Below, piece after piece: positions 10,477 through 56,468 of a DNA stretch of 64,000 bases. The stretch lies in assembly GCA_963205185.1 (NCBI GenBank), contig CAUJHZ010000058.1, forward strand, positions 1 to 64,000, given 5' to 3'. Made by a program: the position numbers and the translations under genes. A model generated the notes under the pieces. The model had not been told where the DNA came from, ran no database searches, and saw only the letters and a program-made list of their open reading frames with translations. Each line of letters opens with the position of its first letter. Positions within the stretch are counted from its first letter, which is position 1. The stretch comes from Planctomycetota bacterium. GTDB taxonomy: Bacteria > Planctomycetota > Phycisphaerae > Phycisphaerales > UBA5793.

Positions 10477-10701
10477 CTAACCGCGGGGCCGGTTCACCAC
10501 AGTGAGGCGCGAAGACTCGCCGAGTTCAAGTGCGATGTCGCCGGAATCTGCGGATTGGGTGGGCGGCGAGGATGCTCGCGACCGGGCCGCCCGGACGTAC
10601 CGGACGACGCCGCATGCGAGGATGCGGGCGACCTCGGCTCGGCGCTCGGCGACGGACATGGTGGCGGGATCGGAGATGGCGGGCACGGCGGGCTCCGGCA
10701 C
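10477..10701 (-). CDS. small recombinase-linked protein
   Basis: This 74-residue protein starts at GTG 10701. A close relative, including the PEPAVPAI N-terminus and the VAERR...ILACG..R helix, is encoded at 21526-21831, which supports both the gene and this start, although no clear ribosome site is seen. It is the outermost gene of the left prophage on the recombinase side. Sequence shared with the second copy stops exactly at the start codon. The function is unknown. Confidence 0.65.
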   Translation of the reverse strand: MPEPAVPAISDPATMSVAERRAEVARILACGVVRYVRAARSRASSPPTQSADSGDIALELGESSRLTVVNRPRG

Positions 10702-13404: not shown

Positions 13405-13786
13405 GGCGAATCTCCTGACCTGTTGGCCCGACGTGAAGTCGGACCGGTGATGGAAGACAGGCGCGAGCACGCCGCTCGCGTCCGAAAGGCGCAACACTCC
13501 ATGTCAATGGAGTCAACGCGAATCAACCCATGCACGCGGCATCTACAGCGTGCGCGGGGAACTAAGTTTCATGCGAGGGGGTTCTTACCGAAGGGTTCGC
13601 ACTCTTCGATTTGGCTCCGACGTCTAGCCGGCGCTCGACAGGACACCTTCGCAACTTGGGGAGTGTAACACCTACAGAAGGGCCCGTCAACAGGACACTC
13701 CGAGAGCGATGGGGCGAAAGCTGCGGCAAGGGCGCCCATGCCAACTTCGTCAGCGCCTTGCAGAGCCACGGCCCAAGGGCTCCGAA

Positions 13787-13852
13787 CACTGTTGCGCCCG
13801 CTCACCGAGCGCAACAGTGGGGGTTGCGCTCCCTACTGGGGAGACAACCCCC
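13787..13852. repeat. two back-to-back hairpins
   Basis: CACTGTTGCGC at 13787-13797 pairs perfectly with GCGCAACAGTG at 13809-13819. Immediately after, GGGGGTTG at 13819-13826 pairs with CAACCCCC at 13845-13852, with an inner TCCC/GGGA pairing. The GTTGCGC word occurs on both hairpins. Such a compact double stem in non-coding DNA suggests a structured transcript or a terminator pair. Confidence 0.6.
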
Positions 13853-14062
13853 TCATAACCCCGTACCCTGCGAAACGGAGACTCGGAGAGACTTTTGGCC
13901 CAAACCGGCGCTTTTGGCTACCCCGGTTGCGCCCATCGGTTATGACCTCGGCGCGAGCAGAGACACGACCCGACATCAGCCCTATCCGCAAGTCCTTGCA
14001 GAACAGTGGCCTGCAAACGCAAACGCCGCCGGGGTCTCTCGACGGCGCGTTCGTTAAACCAC

Positions 14063-14090
14063 AGGGCCGGCTGCGTTTGCAACCGGCCCT
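14063..14090. terminator. hairpin AGGGCCGG/CCGGCCCT
   Basis: An 8-bp stem encloses CTGCGTTTGCAA, inside which TGC and GCA can also pair. It lies about 270 bases beyond the stop of the minus-strand membrane protein gene, so a link to that operon is uncertain. Confidence 0.4.
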
Positions 14091-14356
14091 TCAATAGAGG
14101 TGGCGCGACGGTGTTCGCATCAGTGCGACAGCGAAAGAGAGACACGCGAGGGGAGCGGCGGTTTCAACAGTTGCAAATGGTCGGTCGGCGCCGGCGTAAT
14201 GGGCGCCTTCCCGGACGGTCAGTCGGCGACGATGCCGCCCGCATCGAGGCAGCGGGATGCGCTCCCAATGCGTCGCTGATGCCAGCCTACAAATCAACCC
14301 ACGCTACTTGCTGCAAACAATTGGGCATCAGTCAAATCAACTGCACCCCGCTGCTC

Positions 14357-15022
14357 TCACCTGCCGCATTCGGGGCAAATCCCGCCAGTCCCACAAAGGT
14401 GGTAGCCGCAGTGCTTGCAGGTGTCGTGCGGCGTGCGCGTCAGCATGGCTCGAATCCAGATGTTCAGCATTGCGAGTACCAGCATGTATGGAAACACAAA
14501 CGACATGCAGGTAAACGCAGCACGAGACCAGCTCCAATTCGGGTTCAGGACATCAAACATCGGAATGCGATCGAGCGTCGCGGATATCGAAGTCGATATG
14601 TCAGTATTCAGAAGGGCTCGATACAAAACGGAACTCGTAACGAACAGCAAAAGGGCAGACGCGCCGACGACAGCGAGTCGGCACCAGTATCGAACGTCTC
14701 GCATCAGATCAGTTTTGCCCGTGACGAGACCGCGCAACAGTTGAAAAGCAGGCACTGCTACGCCTGCCGGAAGTACAAAGAGTGTAAGATGTACCATCAA
14801 CATTGATAGGCCGACAAAAGCTGGAGATAGCGCGAGAGGCTCTGGCCGGAGCTTGGATATCAACCAATTGTAGTGGCTCAAGGCATTCGATAACAGCGTA
14901 CTCGAAGATGATAGCAAAGTGAGCAAATACGCGAACAACAATCCAAGTGACGTCAATGCGCTGGCAGCGCAGGTTCCATGCGCAGCTAACGACTTCACAA
15001 ACTCATAGCTGCGCGAAGTCAT
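14357..15022 (-). CDS. multi-pass membrane protein with C-terminal zinc ribbon
   Basis: This 221-residue protein has four likely transmembrane helices (about 18-40, 63-95, 115-133, 167-189) and ends in CKHCGYHLCG...CPECGR at 202-221. This is the CxxCGYxLxG...CPECG ribbon seen on many planctomycete proteins. Its ATG overlaps the stop of the giant RHS gene by four bases (ATGA), so it is translated only after that gene. A small membrane protein coupled to an RHS gene sits where an immunity protein is expected, but it resembles no known immunity family. Membrane topology is inferred from hydrophobicity only. Confidence 0.8.
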   Translation of the reverse strand: MTSRSYEFVKSLAAHGTCAASALTSLGLLFAYLLTLLSSSSTLLSNALSHYNWLISKLRPEPLALSPAFVGLSMLMVHLTLFVLPAGVAVPAFQLLRGLVTGKTDLMRDVRYWCRLAVVGASALLLFVTSSVLYRALLNTDISTSISATLDRIPMFDVLNPNWSWSRAAFTCMSFVFPYMLVLAMLNIWIRAMLTRTPHDTCKHCGYHLCGTGGICPECGR

Positions 15023-18000
15023 GGTACGGGCATCGATGTACAGGCTGGATTATTCGGATTCGGGTTCATCGGAGGAGGCGGATTTTGCGGAATACTTGCA
15101 CATCCGCCGTGATTCCAATCTTGGTTCAGACAGCAGGAGAGCCGCTTCTGCTCATTCGGGGTTAGTCCACATTGGGCCTGGCACCACCGTTCGACACCGA
15201 CTACCCGCGGCGCCCCGTTTGTTTCGGCGCACCGAATGCACCCGCGAATGCAATTCAGTCCAGGGCTGTTACCGGCACACTGACAGACGCATTGACTCTC
15301 CCAGCAAAGCAGTCCGCCTTGGATACACACTTGTCGATTCGGGTAGTAGCACGGCTCACCAGGAAGCGGAGGGCTCTGGGGAGGAGGAGGCTGGGGTGGC
15401 CCATAGAGCGTGGCACAGTGAGATCCAGGTTTGCACTTTACCTTCCAGTTTCCTGGAATGCATACGAATTGATCAGTGCAACCGATTATGCAAGCGCGAT
15501 GCGTACGAGTGCCTGGCACGAACGCGGAACAGCACCCGATGCACTCCGAGCGATTGCGCGCTTGCCTGCAATCGCGCGGTCTCAAGGGTCGCTTGGGGAT
15601 GAATGGCACTCCGGGGACGGGCGGAGGAATCACGAATGGCGAATGCTGATCTGGAGGTCCGGCAAAAGTGCAAGTGCCGTGATTGCAGTTCTCCCAAGCC
15701 ATACCCATCCAATCAATCCCAATTAGTGGAAGAGACGCCACATACTCATACAGCCCCATCCCATCCACATACCCCAGCGGATCCCGTCGCGTCCAGACGC
15801 CCAGGTCGCTGCGATAAACGCGGTGGCGGATGTGGTAGGTGTCGCCAAGTTCGGCGTCGTACTCGTAACCTGCGTAACCCTTGCGGTTGGCGATCGAGGT
15901 GAACGTGCCGATGGGCGAGCCGTACGGATCGTAGTTGACGCGCTCACTGATCGAGCCGGAGGTGTTGATCAGAGCGACAACGTCGTGGTGCTGGTTCTGG
16001 AGGTAGTAGCGGCGTTCATTGAGCGTGCCGTTGGCGTCGGTGTCCCGATCGCGCAGGACGACATCGTCGATGTACGAAGACCCACCCATTCCCGAAGCCC
16101 CAGCATTCTGATACCAGAACTGCTCCGTCGGCTCCGAAGCGTCGGAGTCATCCTCGTACATGGCCACAATCCGCCAGCGCTCGTCGTAGGCGAAGTGATA
16201 CCACGGCGCCGTCTCGTCGTAGCGGGCGCTGAGACGGAATCCGAGCGCGTTGTAGACGAACTCGGCTTTGACGTTGTTCGACTGGTCCTTGACCTTGACG
16301 AGCCGATACCACGCATCGTACTCATACTGCCAGTCGCGCTTGTCGTCGGTCAGGTTGCCCGAGGCGTCGTACGTCGGCGCGACGTTATTCGTCTGATTGT
16401 CCCAGCCGGTGATCTCGTTGACCTTGTTGTGCGTGAAGTCCCAGTCGAACTCGGTGGTGGAGCCGCCGGTGACGAGGTCGGTGTGAGTCCAGTTGCCGAC
16501 CTGATCGAGGTCGAAGATCTGCTTGCGCGTCTCGCTGGTGATGCTGCCGCCGGACAGCGTGCCCGCCTGAGCCTGGGTGAGGCGCTCGAGCATGTCGTTG
16601 GTGTACTTCCAGTCGAATCCGGTCTGCACCGAATCGTCGGCGGTGAGCAGGTTCGAGTTGCGGTTGTAGGCCAGCGCGACCTTGTAGAGGTCGGTCGTGC
16701 TCTGCTTCCAGCGCGACTCGATGATGCGGTTGAACCGGTCCATCGCGTCGTAGACGTCGCTGCTGTTGAACAGTAGGGAAGTGACGACCGGGCTGGGCTG
16801 GTTGTAGACAGTGCCCACCAGCGAGCCGACGCCGAGGTAGGCGTAGCGGACGCGATTGGTCGCCCCGCCGCCCGAGCCTTCGGCGATCCGCGTCACCCGG
16901 CTGGCGTCGTCATCGTGCAGGCCGTCGGTGGATTCGTAGAGATAGGACAGGACACCGGCGTTGGGGAGAGTCATCTGTGTGCGGCGCAGTGTCCGGCGTG
17001 CGCCGGTCGGCTCCTTCTTCTCCCAGGCGTACGCGATGGCGTACTCGTCGCTGCTCGTGCCCGTCGAGATCGCGCCGCTTCGGTTCTGGGTGAATGAGGC
17101 GAGGTTGCCCCAGTCGTCGTAGGCGTACTGCACCTGGTTCTGGACCGTGCCGCTGCCGACGGTCGCATTGTCGTAGGACGAGACGAGATTCGCGCGGCCG
17201 TGGTTGTCATAGGTCGTCGAGAGGCGCAGGATGGCGGTGTCGAAGCCGCCCGAGGTGGTGACGCGCTCGTGAGTCCTTCGGCCCGAATCATCGAAGTCAT
17301 ACTCCATGACCCGGCCGACCTGATCCTTGGTCCAGATCATTTCCGCCTGTGCGTTGTAGGCGAAGGTCACGACATCAGCCGCGGTGAGCGAGTCGGGATA
17401 CTGCACCTTCTGGAGCAGGTGCCCGGTGGCGATCTTTGAATCGCCGGCGCTGGTCCCCTTGGTCGTGCCGTAGGTGTAGGTGGTCGTCTGGTCATTGCCG
17501 CTGCCCGTCATCCGCTGCGTGATAGAGGTCTGGAGGCCGTTGGTGTAGACGTACTCGACAGTCTGGTTGATGTCCGTGCCGAAGGGTTCGCCGCTGTTGG
17601 TGTTCGGGTCGTAGTTGCGGATTGTCCTGGTCTGGCGGTTGGCGTCGTCGTACTCGAACTTGCTCACGCGGCCCATGGGGTCTTCGATCGTTTCGGCGCG
17701 GCTCATGAGGTCGTAAGTGGTCGTGGTGCGCAGGGCCGTGTCCGAGCGGGCGGGAATGCTGAGATTGGTGCGGTCGAAGGTGCTGCCGCCGTTGGTGCCG
17801 TACATCACGGTGTCGGTGAGGCGGTGGAGGTCGTCGTACCAAAGGGCCGTGATCTGCGCCCGGCCCTTGACATCCGAGGCGGTGATCTTCATCGGATCGC
17901 CGTCGGCGTTGGTGTCCAGCGGACCCGTCGTCTGGCCCGTGCCGGCGTCCTCGTGCTTGCGCTGGATGAGCACCTGCATCAGGACCTCATCGCCATCCGG

Positions 18001-21000
18001 GTCGAAGACGGTCTGGTTCTCTTCGAGCACGATGTCGCCGGTGACGGTCTGGGCGTCGGCGTAACTCGAGTCGTCCGTGCTGGCCAAGGTGAATACGTGC
18101 GTCACCCGGTCGAGCCGGTCGTGATAGGTCTTGGTGAGTTCTTCGCGCTGACTCTTCATGATCCGTCCGACCTTGTCGTACCACGTCAGGGACGCGAGCG
18201 AATCGTCATCAGCGCCGGTGGACTGGTTGATCTTGTGCCGCGTCGCCTTCCAGGTGCGGCCGAGTTCATCGAAGAAGGACTGCGCCAGGCTCAGGCGATC
18301 AGTTGACCGCGTGACGGGATTGTCCGAGGCGCTGACATTGCCGTCCTTGTACTGGCCCGAGGCGACGAGCCGGCCGAGGTTGTCGTACTTGTTAAGGATG
18401 AACTTGGGTTCGGTGGGATTGGTCTGGAGCAGCACCCGGCCGCGCACGTCGTGTTCGAAGGTGGTCTCTCGGCTGCCCGTCGAGTTGTCCCGGATGTAGG
18501 AGGTCTGGCTGGTGATGTAGGAGTTGCCGCCGTCGCTGCCGCCGTCGTACTCGGTCTCTGAGACGACGACCATGTTGTTGGTGCCCGAGGTGTCGCCGCC
18601 GGGATCGCCGTTGTCGTTGGTGCCGATCTCCTGGCTCACGGTCCGGCCCAGGGTGTCGAACTCGTTGCGGGTGATCGTGCCTGCCGGAGTCTTCGTGCGG
18701 ATCAGGCGTCCCATCGCATCGTGGGCAAAGGTCGTCACGTCGTAGTTCGTGCCCTGCGAGCCTTCGCCAGTCGAGCCGCTCACGGGAATCGGCGGGCGGA
18801 GGTGGTACTGCCACTGAGCCGTGGCCCGCACACCCGTCGCGTTGAAGATCGTCTTGGTGAGGATGTGGCAGTTGCCCAGGTTCGCCACGGCGTCGATCAC
18901 GTCGCTCTCAGTCGTGTCCACCTGGCTGTTGAGCGCGGTTGTCGATTCGTTGTCCGTCAGTTCGATCACGCACTGGTAGACCTGCCGACCGGCGTGATTG
19001 GTGATCACGTACTGAACGGGGCCGTAGAACACATCCGGGTCCGATGATTCATCGTAGTCGCCGTATGCGAGTGTCACCGCGAGGCGACTGGCGAGCATCG
19101 AGTGATTGGACTTCTTGACCAGTCCGCCCGCCGCGGTGGCGTTCATCACATCCAGCCGGCCCTGGCGGTCGTAGGTGTAGGTCGTCTTGCGGTGCAGCGG
19201 CGAACCGGTGCTCGAGAATCCCGTCGGAATCGTGATTCCGCTGAAATCACCGCTGGTGGTGTCGGCGTCGATGATCCGCTTGACCAGCTGCCCGCCGGCG
19301 AACTCGCTGTAGTCGATGCGGTCCTCGGCGTTCTTCTCGAACTGGAGCGTGCCGTCCTCGAGGAAGAACTGTTTCGACGTATTCGCCGTTCCCGAGCCGT
19401 TCTTGCCCGTGGTGACGGCGGGCAAGGTCGTCGTCACCTCCTTGGGCATGAGCACCGCATCGCCCGTATAGAAGGTATGGGTGAAGGTCGTGACGTGGGA
19501 ATTGGTTGTGCCCGACGTGATCTCATCCTCATAGATGCGCCGGCTGGTCACCAGAGGCCGCACCACCGTCGAATCGCCGATCGTCTTGCTCGTGGTCGTG
19601 TAGGTCAGCGTGAGATCGAGATAGGCGTCACCACTCGTGCCCGTCTTGTGCTTCACATCGGTGATGAAGCCAGTCAGGTCGCCCGACGACTGGCGCACAA
19701 TGGTGGTGATGAGGCCGACCGACGAACTCAGCGTAAACGCGCCCGTCGAATGGGTGTAGGCCGTGACGTTGGCGGGCGTGTGGATGTCGGTGATGCCGCC
19801 CCGATCGTCGCGGAGAACCTCCGTCGCCCAGGTCAGTTGTCCGCTCGTCTGCGTGGGGTCGAGTTTGGTGCGGACCTGCGCCAGCGGCTGGCCGACTTCA
19901 TCAAAGTACTGCGTCAGGAAGGTCGTGTCGGGCAACTCAACGACGGTGCGATAGAGCCAGTTGGCGTCGTAGCCGCTGGTGCCCTGATGGTTCGTGTTGG
20001 TCGAATAGGTGAACTCGTAGGTTCCCTCGCCGGTGGCGATGCCCGAGCAGGCGCGCTGGCCGTTGAAGGTCGCCAGCGAGATCTGCCGGCTCGAATACTC
20101 GAGGTACGCCTCGGCGTAATCCAGCAGTGCACTCTGGCTCGCAGTCAGGAAGTCATCATCGAACTGGCCATCCTGCGTCCAGTCGAAGTTCCGCGTCCCC
20201 TCGAATCCGACGACGAGTTTGACCTGATAGGACGTGCCATTGGCGTCGCCGGACTTGTGGTAGCGGTAGTACTTCTTGCGGATCATCGACTTCGAGGTGT
20301 CCGTCAATGGCGTCGTGATCGTCACGAGTTGAAGGTTGCCCGCTTCGCCGTAGGTCGTGTCCGCCGAGGTGTAGTAGGCGTAGTCGACGCGGTTGACCTC
20401 GACCCAACCGCTCTCATCGATCTCGACTTTGACCTGTGTCAGGCGATCGACGCTGTCCAGCGTCGTGTAGGCGTAGGTGTATCGTCGGCCCGCGGTGTCG
20501 AAGGCAAGCTTGATGCCGCCATTGGTGTGGAAGCCGCTGCTGATCGCGGTGCTCGGGTCCGTCTCGTGCCCGACATACGCCGTGTTCCCATCCGCGTCGA
20601 TGATCTTCCAGATCTGCCCCTTGGCCACGCCCGCGTTGGCGTCGAAGCCGAAGAAGTGCACGCGCGTGCCGTGCTGGTCGGTGTAGACGTACATCTCCGG
20701 ATCGCTGCCCTGCGCCGCCGACCAGTCGAAGACGCCCGCGACGCCGTTCTTCGACTTGAACTGACTGCTGCTGGTGCCCTCGCGCTTGAACTCGATGTAC
20801 CGGTCGGCGCCGTAGATCAGATACAACACATCGTTGGCGGCGTCGGAGGGATCACCGTAAAGGAGGATCTCCGGCTGGCTGGTCTGGAACCAGTTCCGAC
20901 CTTGGTAGCCGTCGCTGTCGTGGTGGCTGCCATCCACATCCTGCCGGGCGTTGTAGGTCCGCCCGACCATCCACGAGAACCCCGGTGCGGGCATCGCGAT

Positions 21001-21264
21001 GTCGATGTCAAAGGGTGAGTAGGCGCCGGCGTCGAGGCGCACATCGCCGCAGATGCGGTCGTTGCGGTTCCAGTTGCCGCTTCCCTCGCCTTCAAGCGGA
21101 TTGCCCGCGAGAGCGATCGCGATCCCCGGCGCTTCGCGCAATGAGCCATCGAGATTCACGCTGCGCTGGATCGCGCGGGGCGCGACATCCTGCACGAGAC
21201 TCGCGGCCGCGGGCAGGTAGGTCGTGAGCGAAGCGGCGTAGATTTCGAGAATCTGGCTGCTCAT
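15019..21264 (-). CDS. giant RHS/YD-repeat protein with cysteine-rich C-terminal tail
   Basis: This 2,081-residue protein has many YD repeats (YDxxGR... YxYDxxGN) from about residue 600 on. It shows the RHS core end signature: RKGYAGYEYDAELGDTYH, then WTRRDPLGYVDGMGLYEY. RHS cores form a shell around a C-terminal toxin and cleave it off. Here the variable tail after the core, codons 15022-15699, is 226 residues with 26 Cys and Pro-rich linkers, unlike known RHS nucleases. No signal peptide is evident at ATG 21264 (GGAG six bases upstream). The membrane protein gene follows with an ATGA overlap. The gene stands directly beside a prophage tail relic, which may hint at phage-associated origin or delivery. 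A polymorphic toxin or surface protein are both possible. Confidence 0.9.
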   Translation of the reverse strand: MSSQILEIYAASLTTYLPAAASLVQDVAPRAIQRSVNLDGSLREAPGIAIALAGNPLEGEGSGNWNRNDRICGDVRLDAGAYSPFDIDIAMPAPGFSWMVGRTYNARQDVDGSHHDSDGYQGRNWFQTSQPEILLYGDPSDAANDVLYLIYGADRYIEFKREGTSSSQFKSKNGVAGVFDWSAAQGSDPEMYVYTDQHGTRVHFFGFDANAGVAKGQIWKIIDADGNTAYVGHETDPSTAISSGFHTNGGIKLAFDTAGRRYTYAYTTLDSVDRLTQVKVEIDESGWVEVNRVDYAYYTSADTTYGEAGNLQLVTITTPLTDTSKSMIRKKYYRYHKSGDANGTSYQVKLVVGFEGTRNFDWTQDGQFDDDFLTASQSALLDYAEAYLEYSSRQISLATFNGQRACSGIATGEGTYEFTYSTNTNHQGTSGYDANWLYRTVVELPDTTFLTQYFDEVGQPLAQVRTKLDPTQTSGQLTWATEVLRDDRGGITDIHTPANVTAYTHSTGAFTLSSSVGLITTIVRQSSGDLTGFITDVKHKTGTSGDAYLDLTLTYTTTSKTIGDSTVVRPLVTSRRIYEDEITSGTTNSHVTTFTHTFYTGDAVLMPKEVTTTLPAVTTGKNGSGTANTSKQFFLEDGTLQFEKNAEDRIDYSEFAGGQLVKRIIDADTTSGDFSGITIPTGFSSTGSPLHRKTTYTYDRQGRLDVMNATAAGGLVKKSNHSMLASRLAVTLAYGDYDESSDPDVFYGPVQYVITNHAGRQVYQCVIELTDNESTTALNSQVDTTESDVIDAVANLGNCHILTKTIFNATGVRATAQWQYHLRPPIPVSGSTGEGSQGTNYDVTTFAHDAMGRLIRTKTPAGTITRNEFDTLGRTVSQEIGTNDNGDPGGDTSGTNNMVVVSETEYDGGSDGGNSYITSQTSYIRDNSTGSRETTFEHDVRGRVLLQTNPTEPKFILNKYDNLGRLVASGQYKDGNVSASDNPVTRSTDRLSLAQSFFDELGRTWKATRHKINQSTGADDDSLASLTWYDKVGRIMKSQREELTKTYHDRLDRVTHVFTLASTDDSSYADAQTVTGDIVLEENQTVFDPDGDEVLMQVLIQRKHEDAGTGQTTGPLDTNADGDPMKITASDVKGRAQITALWYDDLHRLTDTVMYGTNGGSTFDRTNLSIPARSDTALRTTTTYDLMSRAETIEDPMGRVSKFEYDDANRQTRTIRNYDPNTNSGEPFGTDINQTVEYVYTNGLQTSITQRMTGSGNDQTTTYTYGTTKGTSAGDSKIATGHLLQKVQYPDSLTAADVVTFAYNAQAEMIWTKDQVGRVMEYDFDDSGRRTHERVTTSGGFDTAILRLSTTYDNHGRANLVSSYDNATVGSGTVQNQVQYAYDDWGNLASFTQNRSGAISTGTSSDEYAIAYAWEKKEPTGARRTLRRTQMTLPNAGVLSYLYESTDGLHDDDASRVTRIAEGSGGGATNRVRYAYLGVGSLVGTVYNQPSPVVTSLLFNSSDVYDAMDRFNRIIESRWKQSTTDLYKVALAYNRNSNLLTADDSVQTGFDWKYTNDMLERLTQAQAGTLSGGSITSETRKQIFDLDQVGNWTHTDLVTGGSTTEFDWDFTHNKVNEITGWDNQTNNVAPTYDASGNLTDDKRDWQYEYDAWYRLVKVKDQSNNVKAEFVYNALGFRLSARYDETAPWYHFAYDERWRIVAMYEDDSDASEPTEQFWYQNAGASGMGGSSYIDDVVLRDRDTDANGTLNERRYYLQNQHHDVVALINTSGSISERVNYDPYGSPIGTFTSIANRKGYAGYEYDAELGDTYHIRHRVYRSDLGVWTRRDPLGYVDGMGLYEYVASLPLIGIDWMGMAWENCNHGTCTFAGPPDQHSPFVIPPPVPGVPFIPKRPLRPRDCRQARNRSECIGCCSAFVPGTRTHRACIIGCTDQFVCIPGNWKVKCKPGSHCATLYGPPQPPPPQSPPLPGEPCYYPNRQVCIQGGLLCWESQCVCQCAGNSPGLNCIRGCIRCAETNGAPRVVGVERWCQAQCGLTPNEQKRLSCCLNQDWNHGGCASIPQNPPPPMNPNPNNPACTSMPVP

Positions 21265-21304
21265 CGATGGCTCCGCGCCCCCGGCCAAGATCGACCGTCA
21301 CAGT

Positions 21305-21529: not shown

Positions 21530-21831
21530 CCGAAGGCCAATCCCTTGTTCGATGCCTCGACGAGGCGCTTGGTATGGCGGGCGGTCTGCTCAGTGGCGCG
21601 TGCGGTGCGCTCGGCGCTGTCATCGCCGGCGGCGAGGCGCGAATGCTCGCCGAGTTCCAGTGCAATGTCGCCGGAATCTCCGGATTCCGCTGGCGGCAAA
21701 GATGCTCGCGCCCGGGCGGCCCGGAGGCAGCGTACGAGGCCGCATGCGAGGATGCACGCAACCTCCGTGCGACGCTCGGCGGCGGACACGGTGCTGGGAT
21801 CGGTGATGGCGGGCACGGCGGGCTCCGGCAC
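21526..21831 (-). pseudogene. chimera of the recombinase-linked small gene and the tape measure 3' end
   Basis: From a GTG at 21831, about 65 codons match the small protein at 10477-10701 (PEPAVPAI, ILACG). The frame then passes without interruption into the last 35 or so codons of the tape measure protein at 54129-56468 (GDDSAERTARATEQTARHTK...GLAFG). The switch lies at GAGGC, 21634-21638, a word present in both parents. The frame is open but can hardly be functional. It marks the deletion of an entire prophage interior. Confidence 0.85.
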
Positions 21832-46620: not shown

Positions 46621-46665
46621 CCCCCCATGATCTCAAGCCGATCCGCGCGGTTGGCGGCAGCCCTT

Positions 46666-47290
46666 TCACCCGCGCCGCTGCTCCTCCGGCGCATCCGCCA
46701 GGTCCAGCGCCGTCGCATCGTCAAAGCGGTGCGGGGCGACGGGCGGGCCGGTGACCCCGGTACTGGTCAACGCAGCGCTGTCCTCTGCCCCATCGCAGTT
46801 CGTATCGCACGCCATCGTGAGTATCGCCGTTCCGCCCATCGCGACCGGGGGCATCGCCGCCCCATTCCGCCGCTCAGGCAGGCGGTGCTGCTCAGGCCGT
46901 TGGGGATGACCAGCGGCCAGATCGAGTAGTTGGCGCACTGGCGCGCGTCGAAACTCGCTGCGCCGAAGAAGATGGGGATCGGAATCGTGCCGGCGGGCGA
47001 GGCGGTAACCCAGAGGACAAAGCGCCGCGTGGTGCCGACGACCTGGTAATCGAGAACGGCGCTGGTGATCAGCACGCTGAACGTGTTGCTCGTGCCGGTG
47101 CAGTTGGCGTTGACGTATTGCGTGGCGTCGATGCCGGTGTCGGGCAGCACGACGCACATGTGCCACTGGCGGCAGACAGTGCCGGGTGCGATCTCGGCGC
47201 ACGGCAGGTCGGGGTCGCGGATGCAGCACTTGTCGTGGACGACGAGTTGCAGCGGCGGCGCGAGGAGGAGGCAATGCTCGCTGCGCCCGC
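46666..47290 (-). pseudogene. nearly identical 3' fragment of the Cys-rich prophage gene (copy B)
   Basis: From about 46860 to 47220 the DNA is nearly identical to 51770-52102 of the intact gene (CVVLPDTGIDATQYVNA, IPIFFGAASFDARQ). Upstream the sequence changes abruptly to an unrelated in-frame stretch with CC, and a frameshift follows IPNGLSST. The last part is diverged from the intact gene but ends with the same LADAREEQRRG tail. Confidence 0.85.
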
Positions 47291-51513: not shown

Positions 51514-52470
51514 TTATGCGCTAGATCTCCGCTTGCGACAGTTCTGGCACCCGAGCCGTCGTTCCTCGCGAGCATCAGCCACATCGATCGCCGCGGCATC
51601 GGCAAAGCGATGCGCTGCAATCCGCGGCCCCGACGCTTCGGTTGACGCCAGCCCCGCACCACCGTCGAAACCACTGCAATCCGTATCGCACGCCATCGTC
51701 AGTGTCGCCGTGCCACCCGTCGCGGCCGGATGCATCGCAGTACCGGAACCGCCGCAGAAGCACGCGGTGCTGCTCAGGCCGTTGGGGATGACCAGCGGCC
51801 AGGTCGAGTAGTTGGCGCACTGGCGCGCGTCGAAACTCGCTGCGCCGAAGAAGATGGGGATCGGAATAGTGCCGGCGGGTGAGGCGGTGACCCAGAGGAC
51901 GAAGCGGCGCGTGGTGCCGACGACCTGGTAGTCGAGCACGGCGCTGGTGATGAGCACGCTGAACGTGTTGCTCGTGCCGGTGCAGTTGGCGTTGACGTAC
52001 TGCGTGGCGTCGATGCCGGTGTCGGGCAGGACGACGCACATGTGCCACTGGCGGCAGACCGTGCCGGGGGCGATCTCAGCGCACGGCAGGTCGGGATCGC
52101 GAATCGGCGTGTGCGCGCCGTCGTTCCAGTTGAACGGCAGCACCAGATCGGGCATCGCGGCGGAGAGGTACTTGTACGATGCCCACGTGCCCGGCGCGGC
52201 CACGCAGTTGTTGTTGCGGAACGTGCGGCAGTTCGTCACGAACGTCAGGCCGCTGAGCGTCACGGTCAGACAGGCCTTGCCACTGGCGTTGTGGCAGCCT
52301 GCGGTGGGTAGCGCGTGTTTGATCCCGTCGCCACAGACCCAGCACTCGCAGCACAGGCAGTGGGGGCAGTCGGCGCCCTCTTTGCAGCAGCAGCATCGCG
52401 TGCTCGTCGCGGGCAGGCCGGACGAACCGAGCAGCAGCGTGTTGCCGGATGGGCCGAGGATAAGGGGCAT
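51514..52470 (-). CDS. Cys-rich prophage protein, intact copy (copy D)
   Basis: This 318-residue protein begins with MPLILGPSGNTLLLGSSG, then CCCCKEGADCPHCLCCECWVC, an extremely Cys-dense region at 26-47, and further paired Cys. It has no signal peptide. It is the distal gene of the prophage tail module, where host-range or tail-tip proteins are usual, but I recognise no family. Three partial 3' copies lie to its left. The C-terminus (HRFADAAAIDVADAREERR) is the most repeated part. Confidence 0.75.
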   Translation of the reverse strand: MPLILGPSGNTLLLGSSGLPATSTRCCCCKEGADCPHCLCCECWVCGDGIKHALPTAGCHNASGKACLTVTLSGLTFVTNCRTFRNNNCVAAPGTWASYKYLSAAMPDLVLPFNWNDGAHTPIRDPDLPCAEIAPGTVCRQWHMCVVLPDTGIDATQYVNANCTGTSNTFSVLITSAVLDYQVVGTTRRFVLWVTASPAGTIPIPIFFGAASFDARQCANYSTWPLVIPNGLSSTACFCGGSGTAMHPAATGGTATLTMACDTDCSGFDGGAGLASTEASGPRIAAHRFADAAAIDVADAREERRLGCQNCRKRRSSA

Positions 52471-52534: not shown

Positions 52535-53329
52535 TCACGGACAACTCTCCAGATTCACGTCGCTGGTCTGATCGGTGGTGGGCGTGGCGCCGACGCCGAT
52601 GACCGCGCCGGCCACATTGCGCGAGAGGGTGATGATCGATCGCTGGGCCGTGATGCGCAGGACGTTGCCGACGATGGCGTGCGTGACGCCTGTGACGAGG
52701 GTGAGTTGCACGGTGCTGTTGACGGTGGTGTCGATTTTGAGACAGCCATTCGCGTCGAAGGCCAGGCCGCTCGCGCTGGCGAGACAGACGGCCGCGCCAC
52801 CGGCAGGCAATCGGACAATCGCCTGGCGCGTCGTGCTGATCGAACTCTCGACCCACAGGATCTGCGCCGCGCCGCTGTCGCCGCTGAGCAATCGGTCGGT
52901 GAACCCCGGCGACACATCCGCGAACTCGTGGTTCGGATCGGCCATGCCGATCTTCACGGGAACGACTCCGCCCATTGCGGCGCGGACGATGGCCCCGGGC
53001 GAGGCAGTCTCAAGCAGGATTGCGAACTTGCCCGCGTGCTCGGCCGCCGGCACAACGCCAGTGAACGCGACACGTTCGAGTTCAAGAGCGTCAGTGGGGG
53101 CGATGATCGGATCGGTGATCGCGAGCACGCCGAAGCGATTCACGGTCGAAGCGGTGGAGTTGAGAACGAGGATGACATCGTTGTCCCGCTGCAGGCGCTG
53201 GGGTTCGCGGGATTCCTCATGCTGGCGCTGGCGCAGATCGATGGCCGCATCGACGAACGCGTTGTACGCCCCCGCGGGGATACGCAGCGGATCGCCGGAT
53301 TTCACCTTCCGCAGGGAATCGCCGCTCAT
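52535..53329 (-). CDS. prophage tail-module protein, function unknown
   Basis: This 264-residue protein has an N-terminal helix (PAGAYNAFVDAAIDLRQRQ), followed by mostly beta sequence with repeats of small hydrophobics and Gly, as in tail-tip or fibre-associated proteins. ATG 53329 overlaps the preceding stop by four bases. It lies between the tail protein at 53326 and the Cys-rich protein. Confidence 0.75.
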   Translation of the reverse strand: MSGDSLRKVKSGDPLRIPAGAYNAFVDAAIDLRQRQHEESREPQRLQRDNDVILVLNSTASTVNRFGVLAITDPIIAPTDALELERVAFTGVVPAAEHAGKFAILLETASPGAIVRAAMGGVVPVKIGMADPNHEFADVSPGFTDRLLSGDSGAAQILWVESSISTTRQAIVRLPAGGAAVCLASASGLAFDANGCLKIDTTVNSTVQLTLVTGVTHAIVGNVLRITAQRSIITLSRNVAGAVIGVGATPTTDQTSDVNLESCP

Positions 53330-54132
53330 GTTCCGATCCCCAGCCCGGTGAAGTCGCTGCTGTCGTACACGCGCTCGACGTAGACCGCAACGGGCCGTTT
53401 CACCAGCGCGCCGGCGGTCGCGTCCTCCGCCTCGGCATACCTCACCCAGAGGTACTCCCAGCCCTTTTTGTCGATGCCGGTGATGTCGCCGATGGCCAGC
53501 CCGGTGCGATTGGGACGCGAGGCGAATCGGAAGGTCAGTTCCCAGTCGCCCTGGCCTCGTTTGGAGCCTGAGACGCCCAGGAACAGGCACTCACCCGCGT
53601 TGAAGCCCTTGAATGGGGCATCGTTCACCCGGCCGGTGAGGGAGAAGAGCGTACCTTTATATACGGGCGTCACCAGACTGTCATCGAGGTAGTGCGTCTC
53701 GGTGAACTGGTAAACGGGCACCACGATGTCCACGCCCTCGACACTGTCGGCCGTGACGCCGATGGCGCCCTTGAAATCCGGCGCGGTCTTGCCGGGCGGC
53801 GCATAAGAAGCGATGGTGGCCGATGACTGGGTGATGTGCTCGCTGCCGCCGCCGGTCTCGAAGGTGAAGGTGCTCTCACCGGTGTCGGGCGGGTCAGTCG
53901 ATGAATCGACCTGATAGATCACGGTTCCGTCGTACAGATCGGGTCCGGCCTCCTCGACACGCACCTGGTAGAGCGGCAGGCCGCCGTAGAAGGACGGCAC
54001 CTCGGCTTCGAGCGCGGCCAGCGCCTCGAGATCATCGCTCGTGCCGCGCACCCAGTACAGGCGCTCGGTCGATGGGCTTCGGCCGCTGGCGGTCGTTCGA
54101 CTGATCCCGCGTTCGTGAACTTCCGTGCTCAT
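53326..54132 (-). CDS. prophage tail protein downstream of the tape measure
   Basis: This 268-residue protein has an N-terminal segment (SPSTERLYWVRGTSDDLEALAALEAEVPSFYGGL) conserved at DNA level in the relic at 21305-21529. The rest is beta-rich (YQVRVEEAGPDLYDGTVIYQV). It has the size and place of a distal-tail or baseplate hub component, but no family was recognised. It is coupled to the tape measure gene by ATGA. Confidence 0.8.
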   Translation of the reverse strand: MSTEVHERGISRTTASGRSPSTERLYWVRGTSDDLEALAALEAEVPSFYGGLPLYQVRVEEAGPDLYDGTVIYQVDSSTDPPDTGESTFTFETGGGSEHITQSSATIASYAPPGKTAPDFKGAIGVTADSVEGVDIVVPVYQFTETHYLDDSLVTPVYKGTLFSLTGRVNDAPFKGFNAGECLFLGVSGSKRGQGDWELTFRFASRPNRTGLAIGDITGIDKKGWEYLWVRYAEAEDATAGALVKRPVAVYVERVYDSSDFTGLGIGT

Positions 54133-56468
54133 CCGAAGGCCAGTCCCTTCGTGGAGGCCTCGACGAGGCGCTTGGTGTGACGTGCGGTCTGTTCCGTGGC
54201 GCGCGCGGTGCGTTCGGCGCTGTCATCGCCGGCGGCGAGGCCGCGCACGGCCGAGGCGTCGAAGGTGCCGCGCACGCTGACGCGACTGGCGAGCAGGTCG
54301 AGCTGATCGCCCAGATCAGCCAGGCGCTGGAGCGCGGCTGACGCGGGGTCCTGACCACTGGCCAGTGCGTCTTCGCGCTGCTGCCGCGCTGTATCGACGG
54401 CCTGCGCCAGTTCCTGCTTCGTGCGGGCCAGAGCCTCTTCGGCCTGGCGAATGCGTTCGGCCGTCTGCTCATCGAGATCAGCCAGGGCCTCGGCGCGCTG
54501 GGCATCGACGGCATTGAGCGCCGCTTCCTTCTCCTGCTCGCGCTGCGCGTCGCTACGACCGCGGCGGCGCTCGGCCTCGGCGATGGCGTCCTTGCGCTGC
54601 GATTCGATTCCCGCGAGATCGGCGTCGAGTTCCCGGCGGTTGAGCGCCTTGGCGCCCTCGACGTCGAGTGTCTCGTCGAGAAGCCCCATGACCTCGGTGA
54701 AGCGGTCCGCAAGCCAGTTCGTCACCCGCGCCCAGATGCGCTGCACACCCGCGGCGAGATTGGCCCAACCCTTGGCGATGCCTGCGGTGAAGTCGGGGAA
54801 GTTGCGCTCGAACCAGTCGCGGACCTCGATCCACGCCTTGCGCACTCCGGAGAAGGCGATGATCGCCGCGCGCTGGAATCCGGCGCTGAAGCCGATCCAC
54901 GCCTGACGCAATGGCTGGATGCCCTGCTCCCACGCCACGCGCAGGCCCGCCCACAGGACGCGCGCGGCCAGGGCGATGTCACCGGCGGCGAGCGCATCGC
55001 GGATGCCGCTCACCACGGATCCGACGAACTTGCTCAGTTCGCCGAACCGATCACGCAGCCACTGGAGGGCCTTGCCACCCGCGCCGGACCACGCGATGAC
55101 GGTGCCGCCGAGCACTGTGACGGCGGCGATGAGCAGGCCGATGGGGGAGATGACGGCGCCGATGATCGCGGCCGCCGCGGCGAACGCGACTTTCACGGCG
55201 ACGAGGACGCTCGCCAGCCCACCGAGCACGAACGCCGCGGCCTGCGCGCTGGCGCCCACCAGCACCAGCGCCACGCCGACAGCGCCGAGCACGGCGACCG
55301 ATCCCGCGGCGACGACCACCAGCATCCGATTCTCGCGCACCCACTGCGCAATCGCAGTCGTGACGCGCGTGATCAGGTGCGTCACGATGCGCAGGGGTGC
55401 GACAATCGACTCACCCACGGCGATGCCGAGCCCTTCGAGCGCGCTCTTGAGAATGATGGCCTGACCCTTGAGGGTGTTGAGTTGCACGCCCGCGATCCGT
55501 TCGGCCGTGCCGGTCGCGCCTTGCAAGGCGTTCTGATAGTCGCGGAGTTTGTCAGCGCCCTGCGAGAGGAGTTCAGCCACACCGGCCGCCTGCCGGGCCT
55601 GGAAGATGCGGCCGAGGATTTCGAGGCGCTTGCCTGAACCCATGCCCTCCATGGCGCGGTTGAGATCAGCGATGATGGCGGCCAGCGGCCGCACGTTGCC
55701 CTGCGCGTCGAGCACGTTCACACCGAGTTCTTTCAATGTGTCGGCCGCCTCCTTGCTCGGGCTGGTCAGCGCGAGGATGGCTCCGCGCAAGGTCGTGCCC
55801 GCCATCTCGCCCTGTATGCCGGCGTTGGAGAGCAGTTGAATGGCCGCGACGATCTCTTCAAAGGCAATGCCGGCGCTCTTGGCAATGGGGCCGACGAACT
55901 TCATGGCGTCACCCAGTTGGAGCAGGTCGGTATTGGCCGTGGTCATCGCCTTGGTAAGGACATCAACCGCTTCTCCAAGCCGATCGGCTTCGATCCCCAT
56001 GCCGGCCATGATCTTGGCGGCGATGTCGGCGGACTGGGCGATCTCGAGTTGGCCCGCCGCGGCGAGATTGAGGGTGGGGCCGATCGACTTGAGGATCTGC
56101 TCGACGCTGAAACCCGCCAGCGCGAAGAATCCCATCGCATCCGCGGCCTGGCTCGCCGAGAACACCGTCGTCTCGCCGAGGCGCTTGGCTTCATCCGAGA
56201 GACGCTTGAAGTCCTTCTCATTGGCGTTGGTCAGGGCGCGGACGCGGGCCATGCTCTGCTCGAAGGTGGCGAAGGCGATGCTGCTCAGCGCGAAGGGCGT
56301 GCCGATGACGGCCGCGGTGGCGACGAGACGCTGGCCGACTGACCGCACACCGTCGCCGAAGGCCTTGAGACGCACCTGGGCGCGCCGCAGGGCGCGGAGC
56401 AGGCGCGAGTCGTCGCCGCCGATCTCGACGAAGGCCTTTCCGGCGCGGATGCCCTGGGTGGTGGCCAT
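54129..56468 (-). CDS. phage tail tape measure protein (TP901 family)
   Basis: This 779-residue protein sets tail length. The TP901 core region is at about 60-280 (FEQSMARVRALTNANEKDF... FSASQAADAMGFFALAGF). Hydrophobic helices lie at about 375-460, with a long Glu/Ala/Arg coiled coil around 640-720. The last 35 residues (GDDSAERTARATEQTARHTKR) recur in the chimera at 21526-21831. It is only three bases from the upstream gene. Confidence 0.93.
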   Translation of the reverse strand: MATTQGIRAGKAFVEIGGDDSRLLRALRRAQVRLKAFGDGVRSVGQRLVATAAVIGTPFALSSIAFATFEQSMARVRALTNANEKDFKRLSDEAKRLGETTVFSASQAADAMGFFALAGFSVEQILKSIGPTLNLAAAGQLEIAQSADIAAKIMAGMGIEADRLGEAVDVLTKAMTTANTDLLQLGDAMKFVGPIAKSAGIAFEEIVAAIQLLSNAGIQGEMAGTTLRGAILALTSPSKEAADTLKELGVNVLDAQGNVRPLAAIIADLNRAMEGMGSGKRLEILGRIFQARQAAGVAELLSQGADKLRDYQNALQGATGTAERIAGVQLNTLKGQAIILKSALEGLGIAVGESIVAPLRIVTHLITRVTTAIAQWVRENRMLVVVAAGSVAVLGAVGVALVLVGASAQAAAFVLGGLASVLVAVKVAFAAAAAIIGAVISPIGLLIAAVTVLGGTVIAWSGAGGKALQWLRDRFGELSKFVGSVVSGIRDALAAGDIALAARVLWAGLRVAWEQGIQPLRQAWIGFSAGFQRAAIIAFSGVRKAWIEVRDWFERNFPDFTAGIAKGWANLAAGVQRIWARVTNWLADRFTEVMGLLDETLDVEGAKALNRRELDADLAGIESQRKDAIAEAERRRGRSDAQREQEKEAALNAVDAQRAEALADLDEQTAERIRQAEEALARTKQELAQAVDTARQQREDALASGQDPASAALQRLADLGDQLDLLASRVSVRGTFDASAVRGLAAGDDSAERTARATEQTARHTKRLVEASTKGLAFG

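Follow-up and report, generated by a model that had tools for sequence, protein, structure and literature searches.

The RHS gene studied here ends in a cysteine-rich tail of 226 residues which, together with the next gene, is shown by comparison with a paralogous locus to form a replaceable cassette on a conserved RHS carrier. The gene lies in the window, by which we mean the whole analysed stretch of 64,000 nucleotides from a planctomycete genome, and is followed by the gene of a membrane protein with a C-terminal zinc ribbon, P0002. Judged from sequence, the two are probably an RHS polymorphic toxin and its cognate immunity gene, a pair that would act outside the cytoplasm.

A replaceable cassette on a conserved RHS carrier

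The features of the carrier and of the cassette borders are as follows.

15019..21264, minus strand: RHS/YD-repeat protein from its ATG (15019..21288 from an in-frame TTG), with matches to PF05593, TIGR01643 and TIGR03696
15739..21380, minus strand: core block common to the window and the paralogous RHS locus L014, 90.6% identical
15769..15783, minus strand: DPLGY, the first of the motifs in the C-terminal plug of RHS proteins, read from the sequence (paired DPLGL motifs are described in PMC8636562, partial text)
15700..15714, minus strand: second, diverged motif DWMGM, the end of the core (canonical form DPxGL; Asp and Gly retained)
14144..15738, minus strand: exchanged block with tail and membrane gene, without blastn similarity to L014 10463-11914
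13784..14143, no strand: downstream flank common with L014, the far border of the cassette (88.9% identity over 361 columns)

Searches with Pfam and NCBIfam place RHS repeats in the product (PF05593, E 2e-6; TIGR01643, E 2e-7), and NCBIfam adds the Rhs_assc_core (TIGR03696, E 5e-13, over positions 1-76). The core match ends at residue 1863 of the 2089-residue frame that starts at TTG and leaves 226 residues, which agrees with the cysteine- and proline-rich tail described in the first-pass annotation. Of the paired C-terminal autoprotease motifs, the first is present as DPLGY; the candidate for the second, DWMGM, retains the Asp and has lost Pro and Leu. Among the 117 RHS places parsed, 113 have a D..G motif close to the end of the core. 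The locus combines RHS/YD repeats and core, an exchangeable tail and a small adjacent gene that is swapped with the tail, as RHS polymorphic toxins do. The two features of a T6SS Rhs effector were not found: Pfam and NCBIfam recognize neither PAAR nor another delivery domain at the N-terminus, and the genome has no TIGR01646 match that would indicate VgrG. Rfam families and tRNA genes were not found in the window. The genome gave 13 matches to PF07596, which had none in 14 control genomes, and this fits a planctomycete.

Besides the core in the window, the same genome contains three further RHS cores. That of L014 is 90.6% identical from 116 bases before the RHS ATG to position 15739, where the likeness ends, and similarity restarts only past the second gene. 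In between, L014 has an unrelated tail, likewise Cys-rich (24 Cys), and then a gene for a lipoprotein. The joint exchange of tail and next gene is the pattern expected of an Rhs-CT/immunity module (cf. PMC3150448, partial text). The start-stop coupling proposed in the first-pass annotation is present as well, since the ATG of P0002 (15022-15020) lies on the TGA of the RHS gene (15021-15019) in an ATGA overlap. The genome's four RHS tails are all Cys-rich (26, 24, 15 and 10 Cys), and each precedes a gene with a lipobox or transmembrane segments when read by eye; the automatic rule used below missed one of these genes (L016).

Base composition separates the cassette from its carrier. GC3 falls from 0.87 in the window's core to 0.56 in its tail, and host codon usage by itself gives the tail no support. 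Across 100 RHS modules, GC3 averages about 0.79 in cores, about 0.55 in tails and about 0.53 in next genes; the tail lies below its core in 99 of the 100 modules parsed, and next genes are on average as low as tails. Because low GC3 is usual for RHS tails in these genomes, we read it as the mark of an acquired cassette rather than of a non-coding stretch. Block exchange and common atypical composition together speak for the arrangement of a toxin-immunity pair, as the earlier annotation had suggested. The core family occupies 37 places in five genomes of the genus, several of them in tandem with short frames (in G002:C28, frames of 2557, 516 and 532 codons), and such tandem short frames with RHS cores look like orphan modules.

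The cysteine-rich tail and its membrane partner

Within the cassette we distinguish the following parts.

15019..15699, minus strand: C-terminal tail, the proposed toxin, 226 aa with 26 Cys and 38 Pro, without Pfam or NCBIfam family or convincing PDB relative
15403..15573, minus strand: Cys module A, 9 Cys, including CIGCC-x12-Cx3C; helices with pLDDT about 62-73 in a low-confidence model
15355..15402, minus strand: proline-rich linker between Cys modules A and B
15085..15354, minus strand: Cys module B, 14 Cys
14357..15022, minus strand: P0002, a four-TM protein of 221 aa with C-terminal ribbon, the proposed immunity protein, in ATGA overlap with the RHS gene
14366..14419, minus strand: C-terminal ribbon of P0002, CxxC-x10-CxxC, sequence CKHCGYHLCGTGGICPEC, predicted cytoplasmic

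Of the 30 Cys in the RHS protein counted from ATG, 26 fall in the C-terminal 226 residues, and the remaining 1855 residues have 4 (binomial P 2e-15 for the tail at an assumed Cys rate of 1.5%). After a short start the tail consists of module A, the Pro-rich linker, module B and a Pro-rich end, and it contains three Cx3C...Cx3C stretches. Structure prediction from the single sequence remained at low confidence for both proteins (mean pLDDT 43 for the tail and 52 for P0002); the weak model of the tail shows helices in both Cys modules. A reading of the tail as zinc knuckles was rejected on the spacing of its Cys.

The first-pass annotation held the tail to be unlike known RHS nuclease or deaminase toxins, and searches with the tail alone gave no Pfam or NCBIfam family, no curated toxin domain and only unconvincing PDB matches (best E 0.04 and 0.3). 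Neither is the tail a fixed part of the RHS proteins of its clade: no relative was found in genome_contigs, and 400 genomes of the order returned only its own place and one weak match (E 5e-4, with an internal stop). The annotation had also proposed a search for the tail fused to other polymorphic toxin scaffolds, and no such fusion was found in these sets.

A high Cys content and Pro-rich linkers would suit a surface protein, so the tail could instead be a structural or adhesive end of a surface-exposed RHS protein with P0002 as its anchor or export partner. This explanation gains something from the lack of a recognized toxin domain and from a second Cys-rich protein near a phage-tail gene in the same window (51514..52470). 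We nevertheless consider it unlikely, given that tails are swapped for unrelated ones along with the next gene, that sister genomes hold short frames, some in tandem, whose cores bear Cys-rich and Cys-poor tails, and that HExxH or hydrolase motifs occur in other Cys-rich tails (see below).

For P0002, the four helices and the zinc ribbon of the earlier description were recovered: hydrophobic segments span residues 19-37, 72-90, 116-134 and 168-186. The density of Lys and Arg is highest in the loop that connects segments 2 and 3 and in the C-terminal region; we read from this a predicted topology with a cytoplasmic ribbon and two external loops of about 33 residues. The protein reached no Pfam or NCBIfam cut-off, with only sub-threshold NrdD matches at the ribbon end, and resembles no solved structure convincingly. 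Its N-terminal part has no other match in 301 genomes, where the whole protein found itself and, through its C-terminal part, two further places (E 4e-7 and 6e-7) that adjoin housekeeping or unrelated genes, not RHS genes. The partner at L064, which has four TM segments, a ribbon and a similar core, was considered as a relative and dismissed, the likeness being limited to the last TM segment and the ribbon (28% over 64 aa, E 0.001).

Ribbons of this kind are not peculiar to P0002. Searching its own genome with the protein gave 26 further places at E <= 1, nearly all of them matching the C-terminal part only; a search of genome_contigs gave no relatives of P0002. The ribbon is a generic add-on and in itself no evidence of immunity. 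Several of the proteins that match the ribbon end have two TM segments and are encoded at a distance from RHS genes, in some cases in tandem; tandem membrane genes with C-terminal CxxC..C..C ribbons stand off RHS loci at L019 4435-8408 (five genes in a row), L021 7143-8624 and L022 2582-3936 of the same genome. Even without its ribbon, the partner encoded after the Cys-rich tail of L068 matches the array protein at L022 2582-3271 (27% over 164 aa, E 3e-12), and the partner at L072, treated alike, matches L021 7491-8147 (E 4e-4). Some RHS partners, at least, are thus members of a larger membrane family that also forms arrays. P0002 without its ribbon end has no visible membership in this family. 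The arrays may represent poly-immunity loci in the sense of Zhang et al. (PMC3482391, partial text), or a general family that supplied immunity proteins. As a separate observation, alike Cys-containing tails occur in two species, at L054 (G001:C23) and L072 (G002:C48), each followed by an alike two-TM ribbon gene when compared by eye; the tail frame of L054 is broken, and L072 is its intact relative.

Cysteine-rich RHS tails as a class

The survey covered 117 RHS places: the complete set of 37 from the genus and 80 from the order. The latter are not a random sample and comprise 6 of the 11 matches of genome G016 and the 74 best-scoring other non-genus places among the matches listed. The next gene could be evaluated in 100 places; of the 17 left out, 8 had a tail of less than 100 aa or no stop and 9 had no next ORF by our rule. 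Products were called exported or membrane-bound by a crude rule based on hydropathy alone, which looked at windows of 19 residues or for an N-terminal 12-mer that is hydrophobic and uncharged. Tails with at least 10 Cys number 21 among the 117 places, and 19 of them entered the test. The two left out are L065 (14 Cys), at a contig end and followed by a short hydrophobic ORF, and L143 (11 Cys), whose sole nearby ORF, at +246, is not hydrophobic.

By this call, 54 of the 100 next genes encode exported or membrane products, and their frequency follows the Cys content of the tail: 17 of 19 for tails with at least 10 Cys, 23 of 36 for those with 5-9 and 14 of 45 for those with at most 4 (Mann-Whitney P 1e-7). 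The median Cys density of tails is 0.031 before exported products and 0.005 before others. A mean difference as large as that observed arose in 31 of 5000 permutations within genomes and in none of 5000 within families. When only the genus is considered, the contrast does not reach significance (10 of 12 versus 12 of 20 at a threshold of at least 10 Cys, P 0.25; 9 of 10 versus 13 of 22 at one of at least 12, P 0.11), partly because many low-Cys tails of the genus precede membrane genes too. L016 and L052 are high-Cys exceptions by the automatic call, and the left-out L143 would be another. The Cys-rich tails are mostly unrelated to each other, as none of the 19 tested is paired with another within the 18 homologous tail pairs found.

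A ribbon of the form CxxC-x7-18-CxxC occurs in the next gene after 9 of the 19 Cys-rich tails versus 4 of the other 81 (P 2e-5; reached in 1 of 5000 within-genome permutations), and all 13 ribbon-bearing products were also called exported or membrane-bound. This enrichment bears on another explanation, in which the tail is a toxin and P0002 not its immunity protein but a passenger or an accessory for export or release. Ribbon membrane proteins do occur off RHS genes, some in tandem, and homologous tails have homologous next genes in only 3 of the 18 pairs as picked automatically. Against these points stand the ATGA overlap, the common low GC3, the joint exchange of gene and tail and the accumulation of ribbon genes beside Cys-rich tails, and we regard a partner unrelated to immunity as quite unlikely.

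The spacing of the cysteines gives an indication of their function. In the 21 Cys-rich tails, Cx3C occurs 47 times where 28.3 are expected, a number reached in none of 1000 shuffles, and both CxC and CxxC are below expectation. The number of Cys is even in 14 of the 17 tails with at least 12. Enrichment of Cx3C but not of CxxC favours disulfides over zinc sites, and the pattern of the class fits helical hairpins closed by disulfides rather than zinc ribbons. Metal-binding toxin domains exist, and a tail so abundant in Cys might bind zinc and act in the cytoplasm as a nuclease or DNA-binding toxin. With CxxC and CxC depleted and Cx3C enriched across the class, and with 17 of 19 next products exported or membrane-bound whereas known immunity proteins are mostly cytoplasmic (PMC3482391, partial text), we consider such a cytoplasmic metalloprotein very improbable. 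The class statistics, that is exported partners, Cx3C and ribbons, instead point indirectly to the disulfide-stabilised toxin acting extracellularly or on the membrane that the first-pass annotation had in mind.

Some of the other Cys-rich tails carry hints of enzymatic activity. The tails of L066 and L108 contain HELLH motifs and that of L074 an altered version, and the three have an HExxH-like region in common when compared by eye; L074 also matches M76 (E 0.002, under the curated cut-off). These tails (L066 3102-3713, L108 2633-3334, L074 3132-3758) are possible disulfide-rich zincin toxins. The tail of L162 has a match, under the cut-off, to a Tle1-like alpha/beta hydrolase (E 1.4e-5) and precedes a three-TM protein with an N-terminal ribbon. 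The membrane partners of Cys-rich tails would suit peptidases or lipases against which protection is needed at the membrane or outside it. The window's own tail has none of these HExxH or hydrolase motifs. The tails of L064 and L065 were also considered as halocin-like, a reading without support from Pfam or NCBIfam matches.

Possible mode of action and relation to known systems

In the mechanism we propose, the RHS core would be the conserved carrier of a replaceable cassette, and the tail a disulfide-folded candidate toxin of two Cys modules joined by Pro-rich linkers. In the producer, the tail is probably reduced and caged inside the RHS shell, to be released behind the paired D..G motifs. 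It would then oxidise and turn active outside the cytoplasm of the target, most likely at the outer face of the cytoplasmic membrane, where P0002, with two predicted outer loops and a cytosolic ribbon, may block it. Since P0002 is almost wholly embedded in the membrane, the membrane is our guess for the likeliest single mode of action of the tail, and membrane action in particular is a tentative proposal. It is also conceivable, if short of probable, that the order harbours a large, so far undescribed class of disulfide-armoured RHS toxins whose folds are zincin-like, lipase-like or orphan and whose site of action lies outside the cytoplasm, matched by ribbon membrane immunity proteins and with the tandem arrays as poly-immunity loci. 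If true, the Cys content of a tail would predict the compartment in which the toxin acts.

RHS toxin-immunity modules are already known. The Rhs-CT/RhsI system of Dickeya dadantii (PMC3150448, partial text) likewise has a conserved core, a variable C-terminus, an adjacent immunity gene and orphan modules; it differs from the window, where the tail is Cys-rich, the partner is a four-TM ribbon protein and no relation to a known family was found. Tse5 of Pseudomonas aeruginosa, a pore-forming toxin (PMC10684867, partial text), is a precedent for an RHS shell that delivers a membrane-acting C-terminal toxin, membrane action being a guess in our case. However, Tse5 belongs to a T6SS, whereas the window's genome has no VgrG match and the tail is filled with Cys and not obviously hydrophobic. 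CDI ionophore toxins also act on membranes and have highly polymorphic cognate CdiI proteins, but their carrier is CdiA, their ionophore domain has five helices and no disulfide-rich tail is described in the accessible part of that report (PMC11630599).

A dependence on oxidation has been described for the T6SS effectors Ssp2 and Ssp4, which are periplasmic and need the DsbA of the target, while the cytoplasmic Rhs2 does not (PMC5792426, partial text). As proposed here for the tail, they are activated once a disulfide has formed, in their case in the periplasm of the target, and the disulfide of Ssp2 is a Cx3C; they differ in having three Cys each and in not being RHS tails. As for immunity, Zhang et al. 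(2012) describe all but a few immunity proteins of polymorphic toxins as cytoplasmic and name a few that are TM, secreted or lipoproteins (PMC3482391, partial text). Among these rare forms are Imm17, Imm-CdiI and Imm65, which have two TM helices (Imm17, Imm-CdiI) or are lipoproteins; P0002, with four TM segments and a ribbon, does not belong to Imm17 or Imm-CdiI. The words disulfide, periplasm and zinc ribbon are absent from the first 300,000 characters of that work. Searches of the open literature brought up no work in which Cys-rich RHS tails are described together with membrane partners that carry ribbons. Against the mostly cytoplasmic immunity proteins of Zhang et al. (PMC3482391, partial text), a share of predicted exported or membrane products above one half that tracks tail Cys content offers a simple, testable rule: the Cys content of a tail hints at where an uncharacterised RHS toxin acts. 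The data also provide a set of orphan disulfide-rich candidate antibacterial folds with candidate antidotes, and they suggest what some of the numerous ribbon-tailed membrane proteins encoded in these genomes may do.

Some observations concern the surroundings of the RHS gene. The 318-aa protein encoded at 51514-52470 has a dense Cys cluster near its start, lies close to phage-tail genes and has no Pfam or PHROG match; a diverged DNA copy of its region is found at 46654-47222 (84% over 570 bases). A repeat of about 195 bases (83-86% identical) occurs near both RHS loci, at 10504-10701 and 21634-21831 of the window and at 17004-17197 of L014. The RHS gene adjoins a phage-tail fragment: immediately upstream of it, 21372-21638 copies 53975-54241 at 90.6% identity, a segment in which a phage tape-measure gene (54129-56468) ends and the gene after it (53326-54132) begins.
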